A stretch of DNA of 55,688 nt, taken from NCBI GenBank assembly GCA_035631875.1, contig DASQHX010000007.1:1-55688 (forward strand), written 5' to 3'. Every line of letters begins with the position of its first letter. Position 1 is the stretch's first letter. Shown here in pieces: positions 25,646 through 51,922 of the stretch. The translations under genes and the position numbers were made by a program. The notes under the pieces are model-generated. The model was not told the DNA's origin, searched no databases, and saw only the letters and a list, made by a program, of their open reading frames with translations. Origin of the DNA: Nitrosopumilaceae archaeon (GTDB taxonomy: Archaea > Thermoproteota > Nitrososphaeria > Nitrososphaerales > Nitrosopumilaceae).

Positions 25646-26350
25646 TTAGTATAGTTTTTTCTTGCGTAGTTTTGACATTTTTAGTACTAGTTCATCAAGC
25701 TTTAGTTCCAGCTTTGGATCAAATTTTGTTTTGGCAAGAATTTCTGATGGGATCTTGGCAATGTTTGTATCCATAGTTATCTTTGTGGTTGGCAGGTTTT
25801 TTTCTATCCATAATTTGATTACCTTGTCTTCAAGCTTGTAGTCTCGAAATCCTTCAGGGAATTTCTTTGTAATATGTAAAAGTAATGTCTTGTCATCAAA
25901 TACAGCCCTTGGATCAAAAAGTCTAGTTGCGTCAGAATAGGCACTTTCAAATAAATTTCCTGAAAGCTCATCAGAAAGAATTTCCATTTTTGATATTCTA
26001 CGTACTAGTTCTAAATAGTGCAGAAATTCGTGAGCCAGTATGGCGTGTATTGTTCCTTTTAGACCAAATGCAACTAGTGGTGCAGTGATTTGAATTATGA
26101 TTTCTAGTTTTTCAACAGTAATAACAGGAGTGGTTCTTGCAAATAATATTCCAAGATCAGTTAAGCTATGAGAGTGGGATAGTACGATAGATGGTTCAAC
26201 ATATGCAATTGGAAAGTTGATTCCCGATGCCTTTTCTATTCTGTCTATTCCTTCTAGCACTATAGGAAACCTTTCTGTTATGGTGTGATAGATCTTGTCA
26301 GGCAAAAGACCATTTTTGTGTGCTTCTTGAACTTTTAGTAACGGATTCAA
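25646..26350 (-). CDS. Putative zinc metallopeptidase-like protein
   Basis: 234 residues. HEFLH near residue 109 is an HExxH motif in the context ILAHEFLHYLEL, which suggests a zinc metallopeptidase of the gluzincin or SprT-like kind. A third ligand cannot be assigned with confidence; E or D residues around EILSDELSGN are candidates. There is no signal peptide or membrane helix, so it is cytoplasmic. It starts at the first ATG and ends directly against the S27ae stop (convergent). The substrate is unknown. Confidence 0.6.
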   Translation of the reverse strand: MNPLLKVQEAHKNGLLPDKIYHTITERFPIVLEGIDRIEKASGINFPIAYVEPSIVLSHSHSLTDLGILFARTTPVITVEKLEIIIQITAPLVAFGLKGTIHAILAHEFLHYLELVRRISKMEILSDELSGNLFESAYSDATRLFDPRAVFDDKTLLLHITKKFPEGFRDYKLEDKVIKLWIEKNLPTTKITMDTNIAKIPSEILAKTKFDPKLELKLDELVLKMSKLRKKKLY

Positions 26351-49395: not shown

Positions 49396-49704
49396 ATGCT
49401 ATTTGGAGTCTTTGCAGTTCACAGCCCTGAGTCATGTCCCTTAAACAATCAAAAAAGCAGAAGAATTTTTCTAGAAATTCAAAGCAAGCTAAAAGCAAAT
49501 GTAAAGAAATTCAACATAATCAAAATCATTGGCTTTTACATGTCCGTACTTGAACATGAATGGATTATAATTTTGGATGCTAAAAGTGCACATGACATAG
49601 AACAGCTTTGTATAGCTGTTGGTATTTCATCCATCAGTACAGTGAAAATTGTACCCATGAATGACTTTAGCGTTACATTAAAGAGATTACAATCTCAGAA
49701 ATAA
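49396..49704 (+). CDS. Unrecognised small cytoplasmic protein
   Basis: 102 residues. It opens with MLFGVFAVHSPESCPL and then alternates strands and helices (FNIIKIIGFYMSVLEHEWIIILDAKSAHDIEQL), suggesting a small ferredoxin-like alpha/beta fold such as GYD/DUF3303. A role is not evident. A gene for a 62-residue membrane protein follows 14 bases on. Confidence 0.55.
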   Translation: MLFGVFAVHSPESCPLNNQKSRRIFLEIQSKLKANVKKFNIIKIIGFYMSVLEHEWIIILDAKSAHDIEQLCIAVGISSISTVKIVPMNDFSVTLKRLQSQK

Positions 49705-49718
49705 GTTGCGAGTATGAC

Positions 49719-49907
49719 ATGGATGATAATGTAAGATCCATCATCATAGGTATTTCAGTATTAATTGTAGGTGTAATTTGTCTTGCATTGAGCATCATAA
49801 ACATATCAGAAGAACGATTTCAGTATTTAGGAATATTTGGTGCAGTTGGTACTGTTCTTGGTCTACTCATAACAATTCCTTCTGTTAAGAGTATTAAACA
49901 TGAATGA
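49719..49907 (+). CDS. Small two-helix membrane protein
   Basis: 62 residues with hydrophobic helices at about 7-26 and 34-52, joined by a short charged loop (ISEERFQ). The frame begins 14 bases after the preceding gene, so it may be co-transcribed. Function unknown. Confidence 0.55.
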   Translation: MDDNVRSIIIGISVLIVGVICLALSIINISEERFQYLGIFGAVGTVLGLLITIPSVKSIKHE

Positions 49908-49916
49908 TTTTTTTGC

Positions 49917-49976
49917 TCTAATTTGAGTTAGGACAGGAATAAATCAAAAATCACATCAAATTGGCTTCAAAAAATA
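49917..49976 (+). mobile_element. Transposase-tail relic A
   Basis: The DNA encodes, with a stop after GQE, FELGQE then IKNHIKLASKNN. This parallels the tail of relic C at 51191-51243 (LELGQNKIESLIKLASKN). It is a short, decayed copy with no start and no intact frame, and lies 74 bases before the first NitrOD5 gene. Confidence 0.55.
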
Positions 49977-50049
49977 ATAGTTGTTGTAATATCATATTAC
50001 ATGCCACTATTATTTTCACTTCAAAATATTTGACGATGAGATGGATTAG

Positions 50050-50337
50050 ATGGAACACGATTATGATATAGTAAGAAAGGCATTGGTGAGTTTGGTTGTT
50101 GAAAATGTCCTTTTTGAGATTGGAAAACCAGTCTATGAAAAGGTAATAGAGTCACTATACAAAGAATATCATTGTTATTTGCCTGATTGTTATGAACATC
50201 CTGAATATCTTAACGAAACACTCAAGCAATTATGCTACAATTCACATGATGTTATTGTAAAATCAATAAAAAAACAACTAGACGAGTTTTCTAATCACAA
50301 ACATATTGAAAGGTTTCTTTCAGTCATAGGCCAATAA
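50050..50337 (+). CDS. Stand-alone NitrOD5-domain protein (1)
   Basis: 95 residues, essentially one NitrOD5 domain (Nitrosopumilus output domain 5). The hallmark is YHCYLPDCYEHPEYLNETLKQL, whose two Cys are shared with the paralogue at 50656. NitrOD domains normally follow sensor domains in ammonia-oxidising archaea. Here the domain stands alone, so an adaptor or regulatory partner is likely. It lies between two relics of a transposase tail. Confidence 0.75.
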   Translation: MEHDYDIVRKALVSLVVENVLFEIGKPVYEKVIESLYKEYHCYLPDCYEHPEYLNETLKQLCYNSHDVIVKSIKKQLDEFSNHKHIERFLSVIGQ

Positions 50338-50385
50338 GCTCAAGCAAAGATTACAAGTTTTGGATAAAATGCATAAATCTCCATA

Positions 50386-50502
50386 ATGTATAGTCACAAT
50401 GTGAATTTGAGATCAATCATAGCGGTTGTTGTATTTGGAATTTTCTGTATATTTCTATATGGATTCCTTTCATCAGGACATAGCTTAGTGAAGCCACATT
50501 AA
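50386..50502 (+). CDS. 38-residue single-helix membrane micro-protein
   Basis: A frame from ATG 50386 (or GTG 50401) to TAA 50500-50502. A strong membrane helix (SIIAVVVFGIFCIFLYGFL) is flanked by short charged or polar ends, giving one spanning segment. The stop directly precedes transposase relic B. It is probably a real small membrane protein, although the frame might belong to relic sequence; support is modest. Confidence 0.45.
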   Translation: MYSHNVNLRSIIAVVVFGIFCIFLYGFLSSGHSLVKPH

Positions 50503-50504
50503 AT

Positions 50505-50573
50505 CCCATGGGATTAAATTAGATTCAGGACAGAATAAAATATAGAATTTGATTAATTTGGTAACTACATGCA
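50505..50573 (+). mobile_element. Transposase-tail relic B
   Basis: The translation GIKLDSGQNKI, stop, NLINLVTT is a second decayed copy of the transposase tail (compare GINLELGQNKIESLIKLAS at relic C). About 23 of 31 aligned bases match relic C in the best block, by eye. It is 83 bases before the second NitrOD5 gene. Confidence 0.55.
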
Positions 50574-50655
50574 AAATTAATTGTATTTATTGTGTATGAC
50601 ACATCGCATCTAATTAGGTTACATATCTTTTACAAACTAATGATAGATACGTCTA

Positions 50656-51036
50656 ATGGAGGATATCATCAAAATGCTTGATCACTACGACACCATGAAA
50701 CCATTGACAACTATTGTCATTGAGAAAACACTGCTTGATATAGGAATACCTGTATATGACAAATTAGTCGATAGGTTGTACGAAAAATACCACTGTTACA
50801 TACATGATTGTTATGAAAAACCAGAATATCTAATGGATGTGTTAAAGGAACTATATGGAACATCACATAAAGTGATTATTTATTCCATTGAAAATGAACT
50901 AAAAGAATTTACTCATGACAAAAAAACTACTCATTTTCTACAGATCTTGGTTCCTGAAAAACTGAAAATTAACAATACTAACTCCCGTATCTTAATACCC
51001 AATTTTTCAAGTCAAATTGATATTAAGAACGACTAA
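50656..51036 (+). CDS. Stand-alone NitrOD5-domain protein (2)
   Basis: 126 residues. The NitrOD5 domain fills residues 10-95, with the conserved YHCYIHDCYEKPEYLMDVLKELYG. A 30-residue polar tail follows. It is a paralogue of the protein at 50050; both lack any sensor, receiver or HTH domain. Local duplication is likely, since the two genes and their preceding relics alternate. Confidence 0.75.
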   Translation: MEDIIKMLDHYDTMKPLTTIVIEKTLLDIGIPVYDKLVDRLYEKYHCYIHDCYEKPEYLMDVLKELYGTSHKVIIYSIENELKEFTHDKKTTHFLQILVPEKLKINNTNSRILIPNFSSQIDIKND

Positions 51037-51073
51037 ACAGAGTTTTCAGAGATAGAGAAAAGGTAATGCGGGC

Positions 51074-51243
51074 ATGGATCATAAAGAATCAGCACAGAAG
51101 CTAATAGATGCTATGAGAATACATTACAACTTCATTAGAGATCACAGTGCAATAAAGAAAACCCCTGCCGAAAAGCTGGGATCAATCTAGAATTAGGACA
51201 GAATAAGATTGAAAGTCTGATCAAATTGGCTTCAAAGAACTAA
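51074..51243 (+). pseudogene. C-terminal remnant of a DDE-type transposase (relic C)
   Basis: A frame from ATG 51074 to TAG 51188-51190 encodes KLIDAMRIHYNFIRDHSAIKK followed by TPAEKLGS. This is the typical end of many DDE transposases (HYNFIRPH...KTPAEKAG). After a frame change the match continues as INLELGQNKIESLIKLASKN to TAA at 51241-51243. The catalytic part is gone. It is longer than relics A and B. Confidence 0.7.
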
Positions 51244-51269: not shown

Positions 51270-51542
51270 TTGTGGAGATTAAACGATTTGGCATGGACTA
51301 TTATAACATTTGAAAATTTGGATTTTGATAAATCTGAATGGTATGAAACAATTAGAAACCCAAATCAGAAAGACCAAATACCGCATAAGTTCTATATCTC
51401 AAAGAAAAACGAAAACATAGTCAGGTTAGTTGAGACAAACAAAAAACAGTGGAAACTTGCATTTAAAATAGATGCACAATTTGACCTATTGGATCATGTG
51501 TTCAGTTATGATACGAATACTGCAGAAGAATTACATGATTGA
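51270..51542 (+). CDS. Unrecognised small protein after the relic
   Basis: 90 residues from a TTG; the frame has no internal ATG. It is rich in Trp, Asn and Lys (WYETIRNPNQK, KKQWKLAFKID), with no known motif. A TATA-like TTCATATAC lies about 15-25 bases upstream. It could be a real small gene or drifting sequence beside the transposase relic. Confidence 0.45.
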   Translation: MWRLNDLAWTIITFENLDFDKSEWYETIRNPNQKDQIPHKFYISKKNENIVRLVETNKKQWKLAFKIDAQFDLLDHVFSYDTNTAEELHD

Positions 51543-51622
51543 CACCCAAAATTGTAAACCCCGTTCTCTTTCCAGAAGTTGATATCAAAACACTTATTAT
51601 TTGAACATGAAAAATTTGTTTG

Positions 51623-51922
51623 ATGACTAGTATAAACCAGCTAAGAAGTGGGATGACAAAACTTGATACAGTAGAAGGCACAATTGAAAGCATTAGTGAG
51701 CCAAGAACTGTAAATCTGAAAGCAGGCGGGCAAGCCCAAGTTGCAGATGCCATCATAAAAGATGAAACCGGTCAGATCAAACTAACTTTGTGGGATGCAC
51801 AAATCAAAATGGTAAAGGCAGGCTCCAAAGTTACAGTTGAAAATGGTTACATCAATAGCTTCAAAGGTGAAAATTCTCTGAATGTAGGAAAATACGGCAA
51901 ACTAAACGTAGTAGAATTTTAG
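51623..51922 (+). CDS. OB-fold single-strand nucleic-acid-binding protein
   Basis: 99 residues from the ATG at 51623. The strands LDTVEGTIESISEPRTVNL, then VADAIIKDETGQIKLTLWDAQ and KAGSKVTVENGYINSFKGE form an OB fold as in small RPA/SSB proteins. The pair WDAQ and GYINSFKGE is typical. It probably binds single-stranded DNA or RNA during replication or repair. It lacks a Zn finger. Ends against a convergent membrane-protein gene. Confidence 0.85.
   Translation: MTSINQLRSGMTKLDTVEGTIESISEPRTVNLKAGGQAQVADAIIKDETGQIKLTLWDAQIKMVKAGSKVTVENGYINSFKGENSLNVGKYGKLNVVEF

Follow-up and report, generated by a model that had tools for sequence, protein, structure and literature searches.

The three transposase-like relics (A, B, and C) that lie at one intergenic site of a 55,688-nucleotide stretch of archaeal DNA are probably leftovers of the transposase genes of several multigene DNA transposons stacked at that site. 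The whole stretch is called the window here. Its variable part looks like a series of stacked right halves of cargo transposons, and the small genes between the relics are presumed former passengers. Intact elements with empty sites in relatives were found, right ends were located behind most of the tails, and insertions made of a tail, a gene, and a right end were observed; to these we add, by inference, the mobilization by the transposase and the deletion of the left halves. The layout of the site is given in Table 1.

Table 1. Parts of the variable site and its flanks (window positions). NIT, NitrOD5-like small gene; R1, profile of the element's terminal repeat.
Feature	Position	Strand	Remark
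Conserved left flanking gene (102 aa)	49396..49704	+	Kept in G002 and G004; in G003 up to ~49705
62-aa membrane-like ORF, possible passenger	49719..49907	+	In this genome and G004; absent in G002 as a clean gap of ~190 bp
Relic A, last ~20 transposase codons	49917..49976	+	Shares 82% identity with C across 50 bp (E 6e-6)
NIT gene 1 (NIT1; 95 aa, NitrOD5-like), presumed passenger	50050..50337	+	dN/dS 0.20-0.24 vs G002/G004
Relic B, decayed transposase tail	50505..50573	+	G004 ortholog keeps residues 307-387 open
NIT gene 2 (NIT2; 126 aa), presumed passenger	50656..51036	+	dN/dS 0.10 over 103 codons vs G002
Weak, putative right-end repeat belonging to the B-NIT2 unit, decayed	50958..51009	-	R1 7.7 bits; G002 ortholog 10.1 bits, E 0.0015
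Relic C, covering transposase residues ~316-388; frame broken by frameshifts and one stop	51027..51243	+	Genome search, transposase match, DNA alignment
90-aa ORF without known family, presumably carried by the C unit	51270..51542	+	Other DNA here in G002 and G004
Right terminal repeat of the element, partly decayed, tip ACTTCTG at 51579	51548..51579	-	R1 7.7 bits
TGATATCA, conserved flank immediately beyond the right tip; candidate 8-bp target duplication	51580..51587	.	Junction common to G002 and G004
Conserved right flanking gene, Ssb-like OB fold	51620..51922	+	PF21473 E 1e-12; orthologs in most relatives

Relics A, B, and C are related transposase tails

The first-pass annotation had described three decayed copies of one transposase tail alternating with NitrOD5 genes. 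Its positions for A and B were right, as were the distances of 74 and 83 bases that it gave from A to NIT1 and from B to NIT2. The start of C, which it had set at 51074, lies further 5', at about 51027 (frame ...ERLNRVFRDREKVMRA). Local DNA alignments of A with C (42/51 identical) and of B with C (40/53 identical) each scored above all 2000 dinucleotide shuffles, while the A-B pair alone was weak, its score being reached by 9 of the 2000. When relic C was used as the query against the whole genome carrying the window, relics A (E 6e-6) and B (E 9e-4) were recovered, together with six further tails. By the shuffle test and the genome search, the three relics are thus mutually related beyond chance. 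Moreover, each of them aligns with the final ~200 bp of an intact copy of the transposase gene, which bears out the transposase origin proposed earlier. Relic B is the remnant of a longer tail, as its ortholog in G004 reads through without a stop (Table 1). When this genome was compared with G002, tail C was 77.7% identical, NIT2 95.8%, and relic A 96%; the gene 3' of tail C differs in G002, together with tail C itself.

The tails could in principle have been conserved for a function of their own, as a promoter, a 3' UTR, or a small RNA, independently of any transposon. They frequently lie 10-80 bp upstream of a same-strand gene, and this position is kept in several species. However, most of them carry frameshifts, stops, and deletions, some have no same-strand gene downstream, and the orthologous tail C is far less conserved than its neighbors, so that such a function is hardly credible. 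A role at the 3' UTR or gene end was also considered, because tails often follow a same-strand gene, yet several follow a divergent one. On visual inspection one tail showed a possible stem, of the kind that a conserved RNA might have, but it is broken in other tails.

Intact parent elements and their transposase

Two intact elements were found in relatives. In G004:C31, a 6.18-kb insert lies between 8-bp target duplications TCAGGATC, and the site is empty in the genome under study, G001, and G002. In G002:C17, a 4.85-kb insert lies between 8-bp target duplications CTTTAACA, and the site is empty in the genome under study and G001. Both elements have terminal inverted repeats of ~55-65 bp and contain a single transposase gene plus some seven or eight further ORFs, the passenger genes flanking the transposase on both sides. 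They have the makeup of unit transposons, that is, inverted repeats around a transposase and unrelated genes, with a target duplication. Each terminal repeat holds two sub-repeats of ~20 bp (TGTTAA..TTTCGGGGTT) and has the tip ACTTCYG; the consensus of the aligned ends, ACTTCTGTTAAGTTnTCGGGnGTT...GTGTTAAnTTTCGGGGnTT, is this double sub-repeat. A third repeat pair, ~1 kb, is present in G003, where it occupies the target site of the G004 element. Inside this repeat-bounded insert (G003:C36, L233 2613-2692), a stretch of ~80 bp holds two end-like repeats that point towards each other and form a palindromic miniature element.

The transposase has ~391 aa and combines a SWIM finger and a zinc ribbon with an IS240/IS6-type DDE domain. 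Its match to PF13610 (E 1e-12) is above the cut-off and identifies an IS6-type DDE catalytic domain, and D213, D278, and E317 are invariant in six relatives. The best NCBIfam match was the IS6 model (E 5e-29), with a score of 101 bits, which is below the equivalog cut-off of 125. Judging from their co-occurrence in two elements, the transposase and the repeats probably belong together. Some copies also carry a divergent ribbon-helix-helix-like gene of 45-49 aa; such an ORF lies beside the transposase in two subfamilies (L092 3879-4028, L078 6498-6635) and may encode a regulator.

A divergent transposase subfamily has one intact copy in the genome carrying the window, at C11:289k, around which no R1-type repeat was recognized. 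The region C11:286-290k (L078 4454-8066), between mscL-like and radA-like genes, contains a NIT gene, an overlapping tail of this second subfamily directly 3' of it, and then the intact second-subfamily transposase.

A right-end repeat lies behind most tails

A first repeat profile, run over selected loci, matched 3' of most tails and gave no match at 12 control loci having NIT genes without tails. When the calibrated model R1 was run over the whole genome, just 5 matches at E < 1e-3 were obtained (C10:120164, C10:320873, C9:372876, C10:34944, and C2:48893), each within ~560 bp of a tail. Four of them are in the right-end orientation, and the one at C10:320873 faces away from its tail. Since the training of R1 took in four of these five loci, and C2 was not included, the independent weight comes from C2, from the lack of other matches, and from a weak match (19.9 bits) next to the Ssb-like gene in G011. 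The tail at C10:223k had no such repeat.

In the window, the right end at 51548-51579 is the second-best R1 match, a stretch at 25977 scoring slightly higher. Its tip is intact, it adjoins a flank, TGATATCAAAACAC, common to G002 and G004, and the orthologous place scores 43 bits in G002 and 50 bits in G004. On the strength of position and orthologs, it was assigned as the putative right end. The left copy of the candidate target duplication and a left repeat were not found at the window site. Likewise, the tail-only sites showed no recognizable left repeat, and none had both copies of a target duplication; no tail-only site is by itself a proven transposition product.

The last ~24 codons of NIT2 lie outside its domain and overlap the putative right-end repeat just 5' of relic C, and a NIT2 paralog at C6:99890 is without this C-terminal extension. 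Such an overlap of a C-terminal extension with the right repeat in DNA was seen in two NIT genes, in the window (50958-51036) and at C2 (L079 9894-9943).

Two other definitions of the right end were discarded. The tail end was a candidate, as the homology stops sharply there, but the comparison with empty sites places the right end further on. The exact junction string GATAAGTTAGTGGAAG was tried as an end signature; it had two exact matches only and is part of the repeat.

Only 3' parts of the transposase gene are left

The tails correspond to the C-terminal ~20-105 residues of the transposase, and about 11 of them were counted in the genome carrying the window, where no 5' pieces of this subfamily were found. 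When 1.9 kb of DNA spanning the intact G002 gene served as the query, its matches in this subfamily were confined to the last ~200 bp. Among 13 genomes, the ~22 partial transposase copies were all C-terminal, the sole N-terminal piece lying at a contig end. The 3' edge of the homology is sharp, while its 5' end is variable.

All of these observations would be expected if transposition were one-ended, that is, if the right repeat were used together with a random point inside the transposase gene, so that units are born 5'-truncated. The right end that persists at C10:120k, although no gene remains there, agrees with such events. However, no 8-bp target duplication was found at the truncated left ends. 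Furthermore, the C-terminal quarter is better conserved between two intact copies than the remainder (75% vs 57%), which favors its detection, so that some of the 3'-only asymmetry is a matter of detection. Selection for right-hand passengers would give the same pattern, and we consider one-ended transposition a live but less likely alternative.

Orthologous sites differ by insertion and exchange

Several sites were compared between relatives. At C9:373k, the genome under study has ~620 bp, made up of a 120-bp tail, a NIT gene, and a right end, compared with 82-84 bp in G001 and G002; in two contigs of G004, the place is taken by 2.2 kb of other DNA. At C10:120k, ~420 bp correspond to 4 bp in G003; a decayed tail is seen in G001, and a tail of the other subfamily lies at the same left edge in one contig of G004. 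For C10:35k and C10:223k, 780 bp and 640 bp correspond to 27 bp and 21 bp in G004, respectively. The window site itself differs in content between shared flanks in this genome, G002, G003, G004, and G010. Its variable region begins directly 3' of the stop of the left flanking gene, as seen in the alignments with G002, G003, and G004, and the Ssb-like gene on the other side is 97% identical in the DNA comparison. In relatives, C10:120k also holds inserts of 5-9 kb with histidine-kinase-like and receiver-like genes (L193 2142-7437, L194 2084-10669, L195 2464-9657), the last of which has a second-subfamily transposase tail at its left edge.

The first-pass annotation had suggested that stand-alone NitrOD5 genes spread with, or beside, an insertion sequence. 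The link to a mobile element holds, as the small gene at C9:373k lies inside a mobile-element insert; the element is not a plain insertion sequence but a transposon with terminal inverted repeats and passengers. It is very unlikely that a plain insertion sequence landed repeatedly beside NitrOD5-like genes, or that one relic-plus-gene unit was duplicated in tandem. Four tails (A, B, C9, and C2) do lie about 60-190 bp before a NIT gene, against a rough chance expectation of ~0.01-0.1. Nevertheless, tail and gene form one insertion at C9, where the site is empty in relatives, unrelated genes also follow tails, and most NIT genes elsewhere are tail-less. Moreover, NIT1 and NIT2 are 46% identical and the C unit varies between species, which makes a tandem duplication unlikely.

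Homologous recombination between tails was also considered. Since the tail would be common to elements that differ in cargo, resident and incoming copies would cross over in it and swap the DNA to their right, the tails being passive exchange points. Tail C varies jointly with its downstream gene, as such exchange would produce. In four species, a tail follows tRNA-Ala(TGC) at a distance of a few tens of bases (C11:216.8k in this genome, L074 4780-4970; L104, L107, L111), a hot spot of insertion or exchange. Both flanks of this site are common to the four species at 91-94%, and the DNA 3' of the tail differs. The tail of the genome under study is a hybrid here: its left part matches the resident tail of G002, and its right part plus ~150 bp beyond matches G002:C12 at 85%, suggesting that recombination contributes. 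However, a second crossover on the right would be required, and the initial arrival at empty sites is left unexplained, so that recombination as the main process is a minority possibility.

NIT genes are presumed passengers, not dedicated cargo

A family of 17 NIT genes was found in the genome carrying the window. The NitrOD5 label is plausible for them. Like the stand-alone NitrOD5 (PF11537) proteins, they have ~95 aa and occur as many stand-alone copies in Nitrosotalea-like genomes, whereas the Pfam model is unmatched here: PF11537 gave no match in Pfam scans up to E = 10, the presence of the model in the library copy being uncertain. The distribution seen here, with numerous stand-alone copies that occur in Ca. 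Nitrosotalea devanaterra as well, agrees with what has been published on NitrOD5 (PMC5847659). NIT1 and NIT2 are under purifying selection (dN/dS 0.10-0.24, based on few changes).

The specific link between tails and NitrOD5 genes that had been proposed was not borne out. Only 4 of the ~11 tails precede a NIT gene, other tails preceding unrelated genes. Elsewhere, a transposase or tail of any kind was located within 4 kb at just 9 of 80 named NIT-gene loci, and it was seldom adjacent. The NIT genes look like passengers under purifying selection but, given this low count, are not dedicated cargo. A conserved protein of ~203 aa with a weak winged-helix match (L084 7600-8223; L284 442-1053; L302 610-1254) has an N-terminal domain distantly related to NIT.

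Proposed origin of the stacked right halves

Under the preferred reading, that the relics are leftovers of stacked cargo transposons, the transposase of these elements would bind the terminal repeats and mobilize the unit in its entirety. Once it is inserted, its left half, together with the 5' part of the transposase gene, would be deleted, and useful right-hand passengers would be retained by selection, leaving a tail, a gene, and a right end. New elements or exchanges at one site would then stack right halves into the order A-NIT1-B-NIT2-C-gene.

Comparison with known systems

No description of these elements was found in the open-access literature. There is an even chance that they represent an undescribed archaeal family of cargo transposons, with a SWIM-finger IS6-like DDE transposase and long bipartite inverted repeats, which repeatedly inserts and swaps small genes, including signaling-domain genes, at fixed intergenic positions in Nitrosotalea-like archaea. 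Such a family would leave remnants of its right half, perhaps through one-ended transposition, and would rank among the main sources of strain-specific genes. With two intact examples and many orthologous relics, it offers a concrete route for the gain and turnover of small lineage-specific genes in soil ammonia oxidizers, and suggests how stand-alone signaling-domain genes appear at some intergenic spots. The repeat profile makes the question testable across every Nitrosopumilales genome.

IS26 translocatable-unit arrays and ISEcp1-type gene capture also give direct arrays of transposase-gene-transposase-gene, with the gene downstream of the transposase. In the elements described here, in contrast, no two full IS copies surround a gene, the repeats are at both outer ends, and the passengers are internal; IS26-like translocatable units were rejected, as full flanking IS copies are absent. 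Integrase-driven islands were likewise set aside: the 5-9 kb inserts at C10:120k hold signaling and other genes, and no integrase was recognized. An integron-type tyrosine integrase was not recognized among the listed ORFs of the two elements and of these inserts.

With the IS6 family (IS26 and archaeal IS6-like elements), the present elements have in common the DDE_Tnp_IS240 catalytic domain and the 8-bp target duplication (TCAGGATC, CTTTAACA). However, their transposase of 391 aa has an N-terminal SWIM finger and a zinc ribbon, they carry several passenger genes, and their repeats are ~55-65 bp long with the tip ACTTCTG, whereas IS6 repeats are short (15-20 bp), typically with a GG tip. A review of the IS6 family gives this repeat length and names ISDsp3 as its one member with a passenger gene (PMC7986276), and a case has been made for placing the archaeal IS6-like elements in a group of their own (PMC6807381).

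A 2019 survey of the thaumarchaeal mobilome reported casposons, proviruses, conjugative elements, and cryptic elements, as well as IS-like transposons of typically 1-2 genes, and stated that composite transposons with passenger genes were undetected in archaea (PMC6563490). Among the listed ORFs of the two elements, part of whose cargo was profile-searched, neither Cas1 nor PolB was recognized. Thaumarchaeal casposons share the multigene content, the terminal inverted repeats, and the target duplications, whereas the transposase here is a DDE enzyme. With the bacterial composite and unit transposons, the present elements share a transposase and diverse passengers between inverted repeats, but here in an archaeal setting.
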